Assembly: GCA_007129335.1 (NCBI GenBank)
Contig: SKVS01000135.1
Span: 1-12,994, forward strand
DNA: 12,994 nucleotides
From: Spirochaetaceae bacterium
Lineage (GTDB): Bacteria > Spirochaetota > Spirochaetia > DSM-27196 > Salinispiraceae
Reading direction: 5' to 3'
This document shows positions 4,796 through 12,994 of this stretch, in pieces. The notes under the pieces were generated by a model. That model saw nothing but the letters and a program-made list of their open reading frames with translations, was not told where the DNA came from and searched no databases. The translations under genes were made by a program, and so were the position numbers. Every line of letters starts with the position of its first letter. Position 1 is the first letter of the stretch.

Positions 4796-5911
4796 GTGAT
4801 CAAAAAACGTTTATTTAGTATCCTGATGGGAACCATTTTTATTGCTCTTACCACCCCCCCCTTCATTCTTGCCCAGACGGCCGGGGGCTTAGATACCCTT
4901 GTTATGCCAAGGGTTAATCTTGGACCGCCGACGGTCTGGACTTCCTCAGGGGGATTCACCCAGGATGAACAGGTGTCCCTCCAATGGCGGTCCGGCCTAT
5001 TCACCCTGGAAAACCTTGCACAAAGACTTTCAGAACAGCAAGAGGTTTTGGCTGGGCAGGGAACCCATGTTGCAAGGTTTGATCTAACCCGCAGTTCCCA
5101 GACCCTCTTGGTAGAGTTCTCCGCTGATTCTGAGGATCTGAGTATTACCGGATATCGGCTTACCTTATGGGATGCTGGACTCCCGGTTAGGATTTTTGAA
5201 TACCCTTCGGAAAAGAGTAATCCGGTTGTTACTATTCTCCGGTATACAGCCACTGGCTTGTTACAGGGTTTGACTGTTCAAAATCCCGATGGAGAAACCA
5301 CCCATCATTCTTACCAGTGGCGGAATGGTCTCATTCGGGAAGAGCGGATTTCCCAGGGGGACCAGAGGGAATTCCGGTTCTTTTCCGACACAGGCCTTGT
5401 TGAAAGAATTCTCCTGTACACCAACGATACCAAAAGGGAAACCCGGGAGTTTTTCTATATGGATGGAGTGCTTTCCCAGAAGGTCATAACCACGCCGGCA
5501 AATGCATCTCGGGGGTTGGCAGAAACCCGGGAAACTGTTCGGTGGAATGAACAGGCACAGGAAGTCTCCCGAACCGTTGTGCGTGGGGAGTTGCTTGTGT
5601 CCGAGACCGAGTATGTGTATACCCGCGATCTTCTGGTGGAAGAACTGGTCCGATCTGGTGGTCAGGAGCGAAGGACCCTCTGGGAATACTCCGAAGATTC
5701 GGAACTCACGGGAAAGGAAGTATTCATGAATGGCCAGTTGGAACAGCGTACGGAATACGATGGTGATCAGAGGGTTCAGCGGTACTATCAGGATGGGAGG
5801 GAAATTCTCAGGGTTCATTATGCGGATAATCAGCCTGTTCGGGAAGAAGAAATCCGTAATGGCCAGGTTACCCGTACCCGGATTGTTGCACCCCGGAGCA
5901 TAAGGCAATGA
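4796..5911 (+). CDS. Exported repeat protein of unknown function, coupled to the Lol permease
   Basis: The likely start is GTG 4796, seven bases after AGGGTG (4783-4788). It gives 371 residues with a clear signal peptide (IKKRLFSILMG..., cleavage near LA-Q at residue 26). A TTG at 4748 would add 16 residues but places an unusual polar tail before the signal peptide. From about residue 133 to 365 the protein is built of degenerate 20-25 residue units with a charged, beta-strand-like rhythm, for example GLIREERISQG, GVLSQKVITT, LTGKEVFMNGQLEQRTEY and VQRYYQDGREILRVHY. These resemble YD/RHS-type or MORN-2-type repeats in style, but I cannot assign either firmly. Its TGA stop overlaps the permease start by four bases (ATGA), so the two are probably co-translated. 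A periplasmic or outer-membrane role connected with lipoprotein transport is an inference from context only. Confidence 0.75.
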   Translation: MIKKRLFSILMGTIFIALTTPPFILAQTAGGLDTLVMPRVNLGPPTVWTSSGGFTQDEQVSLQWRSGLFTLENLAQRLSEQQEVLAGQGTHVARFDLTRSSQTLLVEFSADSEDLSITGYRLTLWDAGLPVRIFEYPSEKSNPVVTILRYTATGLLQGLTVQNPDGETTHHSYQWRNGLIREERISQGDQREFRFFSDTGLVERILLYTNDTKRETREFFYMDGVLSQKVITTPANASRGLAETRETVRWNEQAQEVSRTVVRGELLVSETEYVYTRDLLVEELVRSGGQERRTLWEYSEDSELTGKEVFMNGQLEQRTEYDGDQRVQRYYQDGREILRVHYADNQPVREEEIRNGQVTRTRIVAPRSIRQ

Positions 5912-7167
5912 AACAGTTTTTTTCCCTTGGAATACGGTGGTGGATGATTTTCACCGCTGCACGATATTTGAAATCCCGCCGAAAGGAAAAGAAACTCAGT
6001 ACCAGTCTGCTGAGCATAGTCGGAATAACCGTTGGTGTCATGGCACTGAATGGGGTTATAGGGGTCATGAATGGCTTTCAGTTAGGAACCATCGAGGATA
6101 TTCTCGAACTGAATTCCTACCACATTCAATGGACACCCGGGGATGAGGAGGCGACATCAATTGCCCGGCAGATTTCCCAACTGGGTTTCGTTCGCCACGC
6201 AGAGCCCTTTGTCGATGCCCAGGCCCTTGTTCAGGGTAATTTCATAGACTTGCAGGGCCTCCAGCTTCGGGCCCTGGACCCTGCTTTTGCCCTTGAGGAT
6301 GTTCAGGGACAGAAAATGCGCCGGATTACCCAGGGTAAATTTGATCTTTCCCAACCAGAATCGATCCTGTTGGGCCGGGAGTTGGCCCGGTTTCTGGGTG
6401 TCAGGGTGGGGGACCGGGTATCCCTTGTATCTATTGCCAGTCCGGAATTGGATCTTCGAAACCCTGCAGAAATAAACCTGGTGGTTACGGGAATATTCTC
6501 CACCGGTTATTATCCTTACGACCGGAACTGGGGCCTTGTTTCTCTGGATACTATTCGAAGTTCATTCGAGGTCAGTACGCCCCCATCGGTGGGTATCAAG
6601 CTCGTGGATCGGTTCCGGGATCAGGATGCCCTGGTAAGATTGTACCGTGAGCTGGACGGCAGGGGGGAGCTGGTATCGTGGAGAATCTTGAATCGGGCCA
6701 TTTTCGGTGCACTCAGGGTTGAAAAAGGTATGATGCTCTTCCTTGTGAGTCTGATCTTTCTTGTTGTAGGGGTCAATATTTACCAGGGTCTGCGCAGGGT
6801 TATTCACGATAAAACCCGGGATATCGGGGTGTTCAAGGCCCTGGGAGCATCCCCCTCTCAGATCCAGGGAATTTTTATCCTCGAGGGATGGCTCATAGGA
6901 CTCATTGGTTCTGTTCTTGGAACCCTGGGTGGATTAATCATAAGCCTTTACCTGAACCAAATCCTGGGGTTCTTTTACCAGATTTTTGGAGGGACCCAGG
7001 CTTTTGCTTCCCAGTACTTCCATCTGACGAGTATTCCCGTTGAGCTGGTCGATCTGGAGGTATTTCTCATTGGGTTGTTCGGATGTATTTCTGCAGTTAT
7101 TGCCGCCTGGGGCGCATCCCGGTCGGTAAAGGACATACTGCCTGTTGCTGTATTAAGGGAGGAATAA
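5908..7167 (+). CDS. lolC: LolC/LolE-family lipoprotein-releasing ABC permease
   Basis: This is the membrane subunit of a LolCDE-type transporter, which extracts lipoproteins from the inner membrane. The 419-residue protein has the family layout: a short cytoplasmic N-terminus with ARYLKSRRKEKK, the first membrane helix with SIVGITVGVMALNGVIGVMNGFQ (about 32-58), a large periplasmic domain (about 60-270), and three C-terminal helices (about 273-291, 321-347 and 385-405) forming the FtsX domain. The segment RDIGVFKALGASPSQI between helices two and three is the typical coupling region that contacts the ATPase. The start ATG 5908 overlaps the preceding stop (ATGA); ATG 5944 is an in-frame alternative nearer the conserved start. 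The stop overlaps the lolD start (TAATG). The lolC/lolE naming of the two permeases here is by gene order and could be swapped. Confidence 0.88.
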   Translation: MKQFFSLGIRWWMIFTAARYLKSRRKEKKLSTSLLSIVGITVGVMALNGVIGVMNGFQLGTIEDILELNSYHIQWTPGDEEATSIARQISQLGFVRHAEPFVDAQALVQGNFIDLQGLQLRALDPAFALEDVQGQKMRRITQGKFDLSQPESILLGRELARFLGVRVGDRVSLVSIASPELDLRNPAEINLVVTGIFSTGYYPYDRNWGLVSLDTIRSSFEVSTPPSVGIKLVDRFRDQDALVRLYRELDGRGELVSWRILNRAIFGALRVEKGMMLFLVSLIFLVVGVNIYQGLRRVIHDKTRDIGVFKALGASPSQIQGIFILEGWLIGLIGSVLGTLGGLIISLYLNQILGFFYQIFGGTQAFASQYFHLTSIPVELVDLEVFLIGLFGCISAVIAAWGASRSVKDILPVAVLREE

Positions 7168-7889
7168 TGGAGGGATCCATCGTACTGAAAGAAGTTACAA
7201 AATCCTATCAGAATGGAACCGAGTCCCTGGATGTATTGCATAATGTATCTCTGGAAATTCCCGGTGGTGCAATAGTGGTAATTACCGGGGAAAGCGGTTC
7301 GGGGAAATCCACCCTGCTCCATCTTCTGGGGGGCATGGATAAACCGACCAAGGGAACCATTGTTGTAGCAGGAAAAGATGTTGCCCATTCATCCGAAGCT
7401 CAACTGTCCCAATATCGCATGAAAACCATAGGGTTTATTTTTCAATTTCATCACCTCCTCAAAGATTTTACCGCCCTGGAAAACGTCCTCATGCCCGGAC
7501 TTCTTGGGGGCCTTGACCGGAATGCTGCCCAGCTGCGGGCAATGGAACTCATAGAACGGGTCGGAATTAAAGACCGGATGCACGCCTACCCCACCGAACT
7601 CTCGGGAGGAGAAAGGCAGCGTGCTGCGGTGGCCCGGGCAGTCATGAACGATCCTGGGGTTTTGTTGGCCGATGAGCCCACCGGCAGTCTGGATGAGTTT
7701 CACAGCAGAGAGGTAGAGCAGCTCCTGTTCGGACTTTCCCGGGATCTGGGTAAAACCCTCGTACTGGTAACCCATAACAACCGTCTTGCCCGGGATGGAG
7801 ACATACACCTTCACCTTACTCGGGGCAGGGTAGAATGGATTTTTGGCCCCAATGGGGCTGATTCGTCTGCCTTTCCGGAGAAAGTCTGA
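7167..7889 (+). CDS. lolD: LolD-family ATP-binding subunit of a lipoprotein-releasing transporter
   Basis: The 240-residue cytoplasmic ATPase powers the flanking permeases. All ABC motifs are intact: Walker A GESGSGKST at 41-49, Q-loop Q93 (IFQFHHLL), signature LSGGE at 145-149 followed by RQR, Walker B LLADEP at 166-171, D-loop SLD, and H-loop H203 (VTHN). FQFHHLLKDFTALENV is typical of the LolD/MacB branch of ABC proteins that work with FtsX-fold permeases. The start ATG 7167 lies just after AGGGAGGA (7156-7163) and overlaps the upstream stop by one base; a longer in-frame reading from 7083 would run inside the permease gene and is not credible. Its stop overlaps the next start (TGATG). Confidence 0.94.
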   Translation: MEGSIVLKEVTKSYQNGTESLDVLHNVSLEIPGGAIVVITGESGSGKSTLLHLLGGMDKPTKGTIVVAGKDVAHSSEAQLSQYRMKTIGFIFQFHHLLKDFTALENVLMPGLLGGLDRNAAQLRAMELIERVGIKDRMHAYPTELSGGERQRAAVARAVMNDPGVLLADEPTGSLDEFHSREVEQLLFGLSRDLGKTLVLVTHNNRLARDGDIHLHLTRGRVEWIFGPNGADSSAFPEKV

Positions 7890-9190
7890 TGGTTTTCCGG
7901 ACAGCTCTCCGGCTGGCCCTGGGCGGCGGAGGACGGAGAAAGGGTACCTGGCGTCGCCTGCGGGGGGGAATAATAGGTCTCGCCCTGAGTCTGGTACCCC
8001 TTACCGTGGTGCTCCATGTATCCGAGGGAATGATCCAGGGAATAACCGCCCGTTTTCTGGAAACCGGAACCGGTCATATTCGAATTCAGACCCGAAGGTC
8101 TTTAGATTATGAGGCAATCGATTTTGCCGTTTCCCAACTGGAAGGGCATATTGAAGGCATACGGAATATCAGTATTGAACACCAGGGAATAGGACTCATT
8201 CGTTCGGATCGGGGAAATTCGGGCGTTCAAATCCGGGGAGTTCCCTCTGACTGGTATTCTGCCGATCCGGGTATTCGACAGTACCTCCGGGTCGATTCTG
8301 GAGACTTCGACCTTACCGGGCAGGATTCCCTGGTTCTTGGTCTGGGACTTTCGGAGCAACTGGGGGTTATGGTAGGAGATGAGCTGCGGATTTTGACGGT
8401 TCGCAGGGGGGCTGCGGGGGGGCTTTTGCCCCGGGTTACCCGATTCCGGGTTACAGGCATAGTGTCCAGTGGGTATCGGGACCTGGACCGGTTATGGGCG
8501 TTTATCCCTTTGGACCGCAGCCGCTCCCTCCTGCCTGGGGAAAGTGGAAACCAGAGTATAGTGGTTAAACTCGATGATCCCTTCATTCTGGAAAACCCCC
8601 TTATTACCCGGGATTTTCAGGAGGGACGGAAAATTCTGGGGGAAATCCGGGCACGCCTGTCTTCTGATTGGCGGGTTCTTACCTGGTTTGAGTTGGAACA
8701 AGCCCAATATATGAATTTCCTGGGAACTAAGAATATGCTGGTTTTTATTATGGTCATTATCCTTCTGGTAGCAGGGGTAAATATTGCATCTACCATGATA
8801 AGCCTGGTAACCGAGCGTCAGCAGGAGTTTGCAATTCTTCAGTCCCTGGGAGCCCATCCGGTAACCATTGGTCAAATAGTTCTTGTCATTGCGGGTATTT
8901 CCGGAACCGCCGGTATTGTGCTGGGATTGGGTATGGGGACAATCTGTGTTATCTTTATTAATGAAATTATCCTGGGCATAGAAACCTTGTTGAATCTCTT
9001 TGCCCCTTCAGCCAGTCATGTGCAAATCATCAATCCGGAGTTCTACCTGGAAAGAATTCCTGTGGTGGTTCTTCCTGCTCAGATTCTTGTTCTTGGGGGG
9101 GCTGCGGGGTTGATAAGTGTCATTTCCAGTCTAATACCCGCGTTAAAGGCTGCCCGGATTCGTCCCGGGGTTCTCTTTCGCCGGGACTGA
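7889..9190 (+). CDS. lolE: Second LolC/LolE-family ABC permease
   Basis: The 433-residue protein has the same architecture as the upstream permease but is clearly divergent from it. It has a first membrane helix at about 26-46 (GGIIGLALSLVPLTVVLHV), a periplasmic domain of about 235 residues, and three C-terminal helices at about 283-302 (MLVFIMVIILLVAGVNIASTM), 326-358 and 393-420. The coupling segment is ERQQEFAILQSLGAHPVTIGQ. Two different permeases flanking one ATPase implies a heterodimeric membrane part, as in LolC-LolE. The start ATG 7889 overlaps the lolD stop (TGATG), with GGAGA just upstream. The N-terminus is unusually rich in Gly and Arg (GGGGRRKGTWRRLRGG), which would lie in the cytoplasm and could help topology. 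Confidence 0.87.
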   Translation: MVFRTALRLALGGGGRRKGTWRRLRGGIIGLALSLVPLTVVLHVSEGMIQGITARFLETGTGHIRIQTRRSLDYEAIDFAVSQLEGHIEGIRNISIEHQGIGLIRSDRGNSGVQIRGVPSDWYSADPGIRQYLRVDSGDFDLTGQDSLVLGLGLSEQLGVMVGDELRILTVRRGAAGGLLPRVTRFRVTGIVSSGYRDLDRLWAFIPLDRSRSLLPGESGNQSIVVKLDDPFILENPLITRDFQEGRKILGEIRARLSSDWRVLTWFELEQAQYMNFLGTKNMLVFIMVIILLVAGVNIASTMISLVTERQQEFAILQSLGAHPVTIGQIVLVIAGISGTAGIVLGLGMGTICVIFINEIILGIETLLNLFAPSASHVQIINPEFYLERIPVVVLPAQILVLGGAAGLISVISSLIPALKAARIRPGVLFRRD

Positions 9191-9246: not shown

Positions 9247-9759
9247 TTGAAGAAAAAAACTGTTTGCACTGCCTGCGGTAAAGCAGGAACAATTCGAATT
9301 CTTACGGTCAGGCACGGCAGAACAACCCGGGAGGTTGAGCTGTGTGATGATTGTGCCCTGCTGTGGGGAATCGGACCCGATGATACAGGACTACCCATGA
9401 ACATAGGGGATTTTTATTTTCCCCAGATCGATGATGAAGAGCACGATAAGGAATGCCCCTTGTGCGGTCAGACTCTTTTGGACATACGCATTACCGGTTC
9501 GGTGGGCTGCAGCGAATGCTACGCCACCTTTTCCCGTGAACTGTTGACCATGTTGAAAAAAGATCCTGAGGGTGTGTACCACCCGGGAAGAATTCCCGAG
9601 CCCCTTCAGCTTCTTCGGGCCATTATTCATAAGCAGCACATCCGGGGTGAACAAATTCACCGGGCTCTGGAGCAGGAAGACTACGAAGAGGCAGCCCGGC
9701 TGCGGGATCTTGACCAGGAAATATCCGGGGAATTCCATGAGGAGACAGGAGATGAATAA
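9247..9759 (+). CDS. mcsA: McsA: zinc-finger and UVR-motif partner of McsB
   Basis: McsA is the zinc-binding activator and scaffold for the arginine kinase McsB in the ClpC regulatory system. The 170-residue product shows four CxxC pairs (C7/C10, C33/C36, C70/C73, C88/C91), consistent with two zinc sites. A C-terminal UVR helix-hairpin motif lies at about 133-160 (RGEQIHRALEQEDYEEAARLRDLDQEI), of the kind that contacts UvrB- or ClpC-type partners. TTG 9247 is the only credible start: an in-frame TGA lies 18 bases upstream, and AGGAG (9231-9235) precedes it at a somewhat long spacing of 11 bases. TTG plus long spacing suggests low expression. It overlaps the mcsB-like gene by eight bases, a strong sign of coupled synthesis. 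Confidence 0.92.
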   Translation: MKKKTVCTACGKAGTIRILTVRHGRTTREVELCDDCALLWGIGPDDTGLPMNIGDFYFPQIDDEEHDKECPLCGQTLLDIRITGSVGCSECYATFSRELLTMLKKDPEGVYHPGRIPEPLQLLRAIIHKQHIRGEQIHRALEQEDYEEAARLRDLDQEISGEFHEETGDE

Positions 9760-10825
9760 GATTTCGGATATTCGCCTTCCTTCGGTTGATGGTTGGTCAA
9801 TTCTGCCGGTCTCCGGTGAGGATCATGATGTTGTAGTCTTGTCCCAGGTTGTTTTGTACAGAAATTTTCGCAAGCTCCCCTTTCCTTCTTCCCAAAACTC
9901 GGTTCAAGCCAGGGAAATCCTGTCATCGGTCGAGCTGATTATCCAATCGATCAGTTCCCAGGGGTATGCCATTGCCCAGGCAAGTCCCAGGGATGATGGG
10001 ACCGTACAGGGAATGTTTCTGGAACGGTACTACTGTGCGGATTTCCTGAAGGACCACCAGCATTGGTACATAGACGCAGGCCAGAACAGGGTGCTCAGGG
10101 TCAATCATTTGGATCATCTTGAGTTCCTGGGTATCGGAACCGGGTTGGATTTGGCCGGTGCCTTGGAGTATGCCCGTTCCTGGGAACAGGTTATGGAGGT
10201 TTCCCAGGGGTTCGCTGCATCGGTTGAAATGGGTTATTTGACCAGCCGGGTTGCCTTGGCCGGGCCGGGAATGGAAGCCCGGGTCATTCTCCATTTACCC
10301 GGATTGTTTCGGGAAGACGCTATTCCTACCATGGTTCAGAATTATCCCCTGGAACCCCTGGCCCGGGATGGGCTGGATTACTCTCCTTCTCACCTCTTTT
10401 TGCTTCGGGGATTTGGCTGCCTGGGTCAAACAGAGCACGATTTTCTCGATCTGTTTACCGAAGGAGTTTCGGAAATAGCCCATTTGGAACGTCAGGCGAG
10501 GGAAAGATTACGGGATACCGATCCTCTGGAATTTGACGACCAATCGTGGAGAGGCTGGGGGAATCTGGTACACCATCGGTTAATGGGTTGGAATGAGGCC
10601 TTGACCCTCTGGTCCAGGTCGCGGATGGCCTGGGGAATGGAAGTGTTGCCCGATTTTCCCAGAGAATTTGGGGGGCTGATCTTTCGATTAGGGGAAAACC
10701 ATCTTTCCCAGTGGTTGCTGGAACAGAATGATGGAGAAAAAGGGTCGCCAAAGACTGAAAAAATGACGATATTAGACGAAGCTAGGTCGGAAATAATACG
10801 CCAGATCTACGCTGGAGGTATGTAA
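9752..10825 (+). CDS. mcsB: McsB-like protein with degenerate active site (putative pseudo-arginine-kinase)
   Basis: The 357-residue product is close in length to McsB (about 360) and lies between mcsA and clpC. Colinear similarity to Bacillus subtilis McsB, recalled from memory, is visible throughout: [12 protein letters not shown] versus VLSSRIRLARNF; GYLTS...HLPGL versus GYLTS...[13 protein letters not shown] versus LGKSEQDI. But catalytic positions are lost. The SRIR arginines are Q32 and V34. In the EEDHIR motif the catalytic Glu is L120 and the Arg is E124. The active-site Cys after GYLTS is R166. In GTGLRAS the Arg is E175. The RG..GEGSEA nucleotide loop is shortened and unrecognisable, and no RDxxRA phosphoarginine-sensing motif is visible near the C-terminus. 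The frame is intact, so this is not a decaying gene. ATG 9752 has GGAG close upstream; longer readings start inside mcsA. An adaptor or scaffold role is inferred. Confidence 0.85.
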
Positions 10826-10826
10826 A

Positions 10827-12994
10827 ATGTTTCGAGGATTAACCCAACGGGCGCAAAAGCTCATTACCATATTGGCTCAGGATGAAGCGAAGCGGTTTCA
10901 TTCGGATCTCCTGCTGCCCGAACACCTTATGCTGGCATTGCTCAAAGAGGCCAGCGGCATTGGTTTCAAGGCTCTTGTGAAAGCTTCTGCAGATCCCAAC
11001 AAAATGCTCATAGAGCTGGAACGTTCTATTCCCCGTAAGCGGGTGGGCTTTGGTTTTGGGGACGTAAAATACTCCCCCCGGCTGCACCGGGTTCTGGAAG
11101 AGTCCAGCGAAGAGGCAAAGTCCCTGGGTCACGAATTTATTGGTACCGAACACCTTCTGCTCGCCTGTTCTAAAGAACTCTCCAGTGAAACGAACCGATA
11201 CCTCCAGGAAATTGGGGTAACCGTCGATACCCTGCGGGACATAATCGTTCAGCTCAGCGGTTCTTCCTACCGAGGGCATTCAGAGCAGTCCAGCGCAGCA
11301 AGTGAAAATACCGGAAGACCCACCGGTTCCCGGCGGGGTACAGGTACAGCTACCCCCGTTGGAAAAAAATCTACCCCAACCCTGGATGAATTCAGCCGGG
11401 ACCTTACGGTCATGGCCAAGAATGGGGATCTCGATCCGGTGGTTGGAAGAACGAAAGAAATTGAAAGGGTCATTCAGATCCTGGCCAGAAGAACAAAGAA
11501 TAACCCCGTACTCATTGGCGAGCCGGGAGTAGGGAAAACCGCAATAGTCGAGGGCCTGGCCCAGCGAATCGTCGATGGGGTTGCTCCTGAAGTGCTTATG
11601 GACAAGCGAGTCCTCACCCTGGATTTGGCATCGGTCATTGCCGGTACAAAGTATCGGGGAGAATTCGAGGAGCGGCTCAAACGGGTCATGAAAGAAATTC
11701 TTGCCGCAGGGAATGTTATTCTGTTTATTGACGAACTGCATACCATTATTGGGGCGGGAGGCGCAGAAGGCGCAATTGATGCATCCAACATGCTGAAACC
11801 AGCCCTGAGCAGGGGGGAAATCCAATGTATTGGAGCAACAACCCTGAATGAATACAAAAAATACGTTGAACGGGATGCTGCCCTGGAACGAAGGTTCCAA
11901 ACGGTCATGGTTAACGAACCCTCGGTAGATGAAACCATGGAAATACTCAAGGGAATCAAGGAGCGGTACGAAGCTCACCATAATGTTAGCTACACCCCCG
12001 GGAGTATCGAGGTTGCCGCTCTTTTGTCTTACCGGTATATCGCCGACCGGTTTCTTCCAGACAAGGCTATTGACCTCATTGATGAGGCGGGTGCCCGAAA
12101 AAGAATTAAGAACTCCGTAAGACCAACGGAGGTACAGGAAATAGAGCGGGAAATTGACCGGCTGAATAATGAAAAAGTAGCTCTGGTGAACAGCCAGAAC
12201 TACGAACGGGCTGCGGCGGTACGGGACGAGGTTCGCCAATTGCGCAACCGGGTGGAAGAGGTAAAGAATGCCTGGAAGGTAACCTTAAAAACGGCTCAAA
12301 CCACCGTTGATGCCGAAGATATCCAAGTAGTAATCAGCGATATTACGGGTATTCCTATGACCCGAATTGCCCAAACCGAGAGCGAAAAGCTCTTGAGCGT
12401 TTCCCAGGAGCTGAGTAAAAAGGTCATAGCCCAGGAAGAAGCTATAGAGGTTATAGCCTCGGCAATCCGCCGCAGCAGAACCGGCCTCTCCAGCCCGAAT
12501 AGACCTATGGGGTCCTTCATTTTCCTGGGACCGACTGGGGTAGGAAAAACCCTGCTTGCCAAGACCCTCGCGGAATTCCTCTTTGGAAACTCAGACTCCC
12601 TGGTTCGTATAGACATGTCTGATTTTATGGAAAAACATAATGTAAGCCGGTTGGTAGGATCTCCTCCAGGGTATGTAGGTTACGAAGAGGGTGGTCTGTT
12701 GACCGAGAAAATCCGGCGCAAGCCCTATTCGGTGGTTCTTTTCGATGAAATTGAAAAAGCCCACCCCGATGTGTTCAACATTCTTCTCCAGGTTCTTGAA
12801 GAAGGGGAGCTCCAGGATAATTTAGGCCATAAGGTGAGTTTCCGGAATACCGTACTGATTATGACCAGTAATGCCGGAGCAAGGGAAATTACCCGGGATG
12901 CAGCCCTGGGTTTTCAGCCTCTGGGCAACGAGTTGAGCCACGATGAAATTAAGTCCAGTGCGGTTCACGAACTTAAGAGATTGTTCCGGCCCGA
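10827..12994 (+). CDS. clpC: ClpC-type AAA+ unfoldase, 3' end beyond the window
   Basis: ClpC unfolds substrates and feeds them to the ClpP protease. The visible 722 residues contain, in order: an N-terminal double Clp repeat (about 1-145) with LPEH (E32) and GTEH (E108); a Ser/Gly/Thr-rich linker (about 148-180); ATPase domain 1 with Walker A GEPGVGKT (231-238) and Walker B ILFIDE (298-303); a short middle domain with a UVR-like segment ([15 protein letters not shown], about 457-471); and ATPase domain 2 with Walker A GPTGVGKT (568-575) and Walker B VVLFDE (636-641). The short middle domain with UVR motif fits ClpC, not ClpB (long middle domain) or ClpA. The sequence ends in domain 2 before the ClpP-binding loop and C-terminus. 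E32 and E108 correspond to the glutamates that bind phosphoarginine in B. subtilis ClpC. The start ATG is one base after the mcsB-like stop, with GGAGG (10815-10819) upstream. Confidence 0.96.

Follow-up and report, generated by a model that had tools for sequence, protein, structure and literature searches.

The locus described here raises the question of whether an McsB homologue encoded between mcsA and clpC still phosphorylates arginine or acts on ClpC in some other way. The window, meaning the whole stretch of DNA that was analysed, is one complete contig of 12,994 nt from an assembly that is 57.7% complete. The preferred answer, to which a probability of about 0.7 is given, is that the protein belongs to the McsB family, is most likely unable to phosphorylate arginine and would function together with McsA as a structural adaptor of ClpC. 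The McsB family is already known; the new part is the loss of catalytic residues throughout a class.

The mcsA-mcsB-clpC locus and its products

The mcsA-mcsB-clpC operon is present in the window (Table 1). A preliminary description of this DNA, made from the sequence, had called the mcsB frame perfect and tightly coupled to its neighbours. Both points hold: the 357 codons contain no stop, the gene overlaps the last 8 nt of mcsA and a single base separates it from the clpC start. Upstream on the forward strand are found, among others, genes coding for an ABC ATPase (PF00005) and for a release factor with PCRF and RF-1 domains. The ATPase gene is flanked by two ORFs resembling membrane permeases (positions 5908–9190 of the window), a layout that, by its arrangement, we take to be a Lol-type lipoprotein export set. 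The release factor 2 gene prfB (751–822 and 962–1870) has an apparent ATG start at 751 and an in-frame CTT TGA at 817–822 behind GGAGGGG, the remaining gene being in the +1 frame; this presumably is the programmed frameshift site that prfB usually carries.

Table 1. Features of the mcsA-mcsB-clpC locus, in window coordinates
Feature	Position	Strand	Basis or remark
mcsA	9247..9759	+	170 aa, TTG start as listed; zinc-finger partner; matches to NCBIfam McsA, 8wtb_B and 8gqd_E
mcsB homologue, putative pseudokinase	9752..10825	+	357 aa, no internal stop; 8-nt overlap with mcsA
SRIR to SQVV: Q32 and V34 replace two ATP-phosphate arginines	9845..9853	+	alignment
NEEDHxR to NHLDHLE: L120 (catalytic Glu position) to E124 (Arg position)	10109..10123	+	alignment
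GYLTSC to GYLTSR: R166 replaces the active-site Cys	10247..10249	+	alignment
GTGLRAS to GPGMEAR: E175 replaces Arg	10274..10276	+	alignment
VRGxYGEGSEA lid loop, shortened remnant, approximately residues 198–213	10343..10390	+	alignment
LDEARS (341–346), half-kept phosphoarginine receptor element	10772..10789	+	alignment
clpC	10827..12994	+	exits the window end; 722 aa visible

The McsB homologue matches Pfam PF00217 with 51.5 bits and NCBIfam McsB with 82.8 bits, below the curated cut-off of 500; this cut-off separates little here because it is passed by none of the 247 genomes of the phylum. The best PDB match to an McsB has an E value of 1.4e-16, and the nearest relative of the protein shares 43% identity with it. 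The predicted structure, compared by fold only, is that of a complete McsB, and both the phosphotransferase domain and the C-terminal dimerisation/pArg-binding domain of the McsB fold are present. Identity to the McsB proteins of Bacillus, Geobacillus and Staphylococcus (6FH1, 6TV6, 8GQD) is approximately 21%, and the window protein differs from them by replacement of the catalytic Glu, the Cys, the lid Glu and all five ATP-phosphate arginines. It also lacks the catalytic residues of phosphagen kinases (arginine kinase, creatine kinase), whose matches fall mostly within residues 21–255, whereas the C-terminal part matches McsB. The kinase fold of Ser/Thr pseudokinases differs from that of McsB. 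The likeness to bacterial Ser/Thr pseudokinase families is that catalytic residues are gone while the fold is retained (PMC12599244); in that article the word McsB was found in the reference list only.

The McsA partner scores 56.7 bits against NCBIfam McsA (cut-off 210) and matches the McsA chains 8wtb_B (residues 63–156) and 8gqd_E (68–118), the matched stretch being the part solved with McsB in 8GQD. The McsA zinc-finger motif was found in 46 of 50 ORFs of the class that match McsA. Two of the four exceptions have an altered first CxxC, a third differs in the residue that follows the last Cys and the fourth (L051) is not an McsA. The zinc finger binds the McsB loop adjoining the catalytic Cys (PMC12467219), and the window McsB keeps the GYL of this McsA-contacted loop.

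Active-site residues of the window protein

Eight residues were scored, namely the catalytic Glu, the Cys, the lid Glu and five ATP-phosphate arginines. All assignments other than that of the Cys are taken by us from phosphagen kinases and McsB. The catalytic Cys is assigned as in PMC12467219 and PMC7235348. None of the eight is kept in the window protein in two alignments to canonical McsB, or one of eight in one alignment if Asp is permitted at the lid Glu. The replacements that had been read by eye in SRIR (Q32, V34), EEDHIR (L120, E124), the Cys following GYLTS (R166) and GTGLRAS (E175) were all recovered in alignment, as was the shortening of the GEGSEA loop. The lid loop is unrecognisable, with Asp at the lid Glu in one alignment and a gap in another.

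The C-terminal RDxxRA element had been reported as not visible. It can be seen as LDEARS, in which the equivalents of the phosphoarginine receptor residues D338 and R341 are kept, and the earlier reading stands in that the equivalent of R337 is lost (residues as named in PMC8370763). This last loss alone means little because the position varies in reference McsBs, being Arg in just 34 of 72, and it was rejected as evidence for lost function. R341 is Arg in all 86 homologues of the class. A relocated catalytic Cys was also looked for in the window protein and rejected: the sole cysteines, C95 and C223, do not align to the catalytic loop.

Extent of the catalytic loss

A first set of 61 genomes was formed by that of the window and 60 relatives. 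An McsB homologue is found in 51 of them and was not detected in the other 10, some of which are more than 90% complete, a point that counts against the preferred answer. A phylum-wide family search gave matches in 164 of 247 genomes. Of the 161 loci examined, 51 are those of the first set, taken in full, and 110 were added from the phylum-wide search; six genomes are common to both sets and 116 of the 164 were examined, the remaining 48 being all outside the window's class. The 161 loci divide into 86 in the class and 75 outside, and were set beside 72 reference sequences hand-picked from 186 listed matches to the window protein or its relatives.

By strict scoring, eight of eight residues are kept in 0/86 class rows, 2/75 rows outside the class and 48/72 references. 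Allowing Ser for Cys and Asp for Glu gives 0/86, 8/75 and 59/72 (13 of the 72 references thus missing the tolerant score), and allowing Lys for Arg as well gives 0/86, 17/75 and 59/72. Glu or Asp, Cys or Ser, and Glu or Asp at the three non-arginine positions do not occur together in any of the 86 class rows, and the catalytic Cys is kept in none of these homologues; its position is taken mostly by Asp (20), Glu (17), Arg (12) or Ser (12). The same kind of catalytic loss is observed in every relative examined within the window's class. Since none of the 86 keeps the Cys and complete copies exist in the same phylum, the loss of residues is not attributable to chance. R33, G163, G173, E252 and R342 (reference numbering) are invariant in all 86 class rows.

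The loss looks stepwise, with the window protein at the far end, because many class rows keep ATP-phosphate arginines (R1 in 69 of 86, R2 in 61 of 86). In the window's family (f1) the Cys position is occupied by Arg in three of the four members and by Lys in the fourth, and L002, the nearest relative of the window protein, retains the EDHLR stretch. The arginines kept by most class members, together with Asp or Glu at the Cys position in 37 of 86, would fit a protein that is still an enzyme, in which other residues catalyse or a different phosphoryl or nucleotidyl transfer takes place with ATP in the old cleft. This is nevertheless unlikely: the window protein is devoid of all five arginines, the Glu and the Cys, its lid loop is cut short, the replacements vary from lineage to lineage and a new catalytic set common to them was not seen. 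In the preferred pseudokinase reading, catalysis would have been lost in steps; many relatives that keep ATP-phosphate arginines may still bind nucleotide, and the window protein would have lost these arginines as well.

Outside the class, L058 (genome G071) and L081 (G095) have the only strictly complete McsB active sites among the 161 loci. Most of the loci L053–L080 (families f35, f46, f54, f62 and f64) code for McsBs with Cys and catalytic Glu, many of them with Lys or other residues at the lid Arg or Glu; these families possibly represent a half-way stage. Family f37 (14 loci among L090–L134, also outside the class) keeps 0–2 of the eight residues and has Ser, once Thr, at the Cys position. 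It may represent a separate loss because it lies apart from the class on the tree.

The tree was built by a quick method from 114 of 166 rows with the catalytic columns removed, and its deep order is not relied on. It sets the phylum apart from the references (98) and groups family f1 (97). The class label needs two changes, the outside row L084, which has a long branch, falls inside the class, several long class rows lie near the root, and the Cys state requires at least 7 changes. Mean retention was 0.42 in five active-site columns versus 0.66 in 56 other conserved columns (p 0.04), a weak comparison that is not leaned on because neighbouring columns of the active-site loops were counted among the others.

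Because they resemble the family, homologues of this kind are named protein arginine kinase, and the name may lead to phosphoarginine signalling being taken for granted. An example is the degenerate protein of L027, from the same order as the window, which contains P0121 of Spirochaeta sp. save its first residue; P0121 is named protein arginine kinase in one source. A search of the open-licence literature, judged by title, found nothing on catalytic loss in spirochaetal McsB.

The window mcsB has the appearance neither of a lone decaying copy nor of a chance resemblance. The idea that it stands beside a canonical mcsB was rejected, no genome searched showing both. The window's own genome (57.7% complete) has one match, as does the same-genus genome G001 (93% complete), and a second mcsB was found in none of the relatives searched. 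Double matches in G018 and G038 (first set) and in G192 and G254 (phylum-wide search) read as pieces of one gene since the two matches lie on different parts of the protein that complement each other; those of G018 and G038 are adjacent pieces of one frame.

Translational coupling offers another explanation, in which a dying mcsB frame is a passenger kept only because translation of clpC is coupled to it. The 8-nt overlap with mcsA and the clpC start one base past the mcsB stop are compatible with this, as are the strong divergence of the window protein, only 43% identical to the closest relative, and a dN/dS of its own that is not estimable at saturated dS. Against it, dN/dS is 0.03–0.23 in 39 within-class pairs of 70–99% identity, none of them from family f1 (93 pairs in total; dS could not be estimated for four of them, all outside the class), none of the 161 loci has a stop reported within the match and structural columns are invariant, which makes a passenger very improbable. 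The earlier statement that the protein is under selection is thus borne out for its class relatives, but not for the window protein itself, whose dN/dS cannot be estimated. The neighbourhood is also maintained: among class loci with enough flank, clpC is downstream in 51 of 51 and mcsA upstream in 49 of 50.

Phosphoarginine partners and proposed adaptor function

At P-loop position PX5, arginine phosphatases of the YwlE type carry Thr and tyrosine phosphatases Ile (PMC8001253). This residue is Ile or Val in all of the best 20 LMWPc loci of the 61 genomes; the single LMWPc match in the genome of the window is weak (41 bits) and lies outside the 20 that were read. Fifteen genomes with an McsB keeping Cys and Glu were searched as well, corresponding to 15 of the 27 Cys-keeping loci outside the class. 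A copy with the P-loop CTGNTCRSPM was found in two of them, G071 and G095, where its gene adjoins one resembling glyA by eye. These are the genomes of the only two strictly complete McsBs among the 161 loci. With the G071 enzyme as query against the 247 phylum genomes, scores were 357 and 99 bits in G071 and G095, respectively, and at most 53 bits in 42 other matched genomes; among 28 further loci the P-loop was readable in 27, all with Ile. The agreement between the YwlE-type phosphatase and complete McsB supports a loss of phosphoarginine signalling in the class. Note that the absence of YwlE alone is no proof of absent kinase activity, because the Thr-type phosphatase was not found in 13 of the 15 searched genomes whose McsB keeps Cys and Glu. 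Bacillus subtilis has both McsB and CtsR. CtsR was detected in 0 of the 61 genomes, an absence to be read cautiously because the search missed the B. subtilis control; among 14 control genomes the McsB family search matched none and the CtsR search Lactococcus only, while the LMWPc search did match B. subtilis.

The Thr, Arg and Glu of the ClpC phosphoarginine pocket are kept in all 50 readable rows of the 51 class ClpCs (by eye), as if the phosphoarginine mark might still be read, and this counts against the pseudokinase reading. Decay of the pockets, tried as a test of lost signalling, was rejected since the pockets are not decayed. According to PMC12583610, the ClpC resting state is held partly through the phosphoarginine pockets, and MecA binds the same pockets. 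Since these pockets have a part in the resting state as well, their preservation is not diagnostic. The question raised is what role kept pockets have when no mark is written.

Of the readings considered, the earlier proposal that the window protein is a pseudokinase acting structurally has the best support, and its grounds are now wider. It agrees with the class-wide loss, the kept operon, the kept McsA zinc finger, the purifying selection in relatives and the restriction of YwlE-type phosphatases to genomes with a complete McsB. The class probably uses McsB as a non-enzymatic ClpC helper because catalytic residues are lost throughout while fold and gene neighbours are kept; judged from its residues, the McsB set of the whole class appears unable to make the phosphoarginine mark. 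McsA, with its zinc finger kept, and McsB would form a structural complex that docks on ClpC and releases it from the resting state. The complex would bring substrates to ClpC for proteolysis without phosphoarginine marks, binding by the pseudokinase pair taking the place of the chemical mark. MecA, to which such a pair would be compared, is presumably not a relative of McsB. The proposed likeness would be functional only: MecA is a stoichiometric ClpC adaptor whose binding activates ClpC with no chemical mark involved, and McsA-McsB is itself described as a ClpC adaptor (PMC12583610).

Kinase and adaptor roles of McsB are both discussed for Bacillus. In B. subtilis, MgsR has a half-life of 12.3 min with the kinase-dead McsB C167S and of 17.7 min when mcsB is deleted, a difference that the authors ascribe to an adaptor role independent of the kinase (PMC7235348). 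The same substitution lengthens the MgsR half-life relative to wild type, so the kinase does matter in that bacterium (PMC7235348). The separation discussed there for Bacillus would have a natural counterpart in lineages where only the adaptor can remain. A broader proposal is that the whole class gave up arginine phosphorylation, that McsA-McsB is a pure, MecA-like adaptor acting through the ClpC phosphoarginine pockets and that the phylum holds intermediates; this is put at a little under even odds. The series would begin with the two lineages that have both a complete kinase and a YwlE-type phosphatase, pass through kinases in partial decay and end in copies of the window type, which lack the catalytic and the ATP-binding residues.

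The contact with ClpC could have the opposite sign, McsB with McsA holding ClpC inactive or McsB sequestering McsA. No direct point speaks for such a negative regulator, although in B. subtilis the McsB-ClpC contact inactivates the McsB kinase (PMC7235348), an instance of contact without ClpC activation. McsA-McsB is described in PMC13125188 as an adaptor needed for ClpC activation, and negative regulation is given a very low probability. A side observation concerns ClpC itself: in the window and in L002, its SPRxKKVLE stretch carries His at the equivalent of K85, a position that is Lys or Arg in most of the class, and K85 is crucial for the ClpC resting state (PMC12583610).
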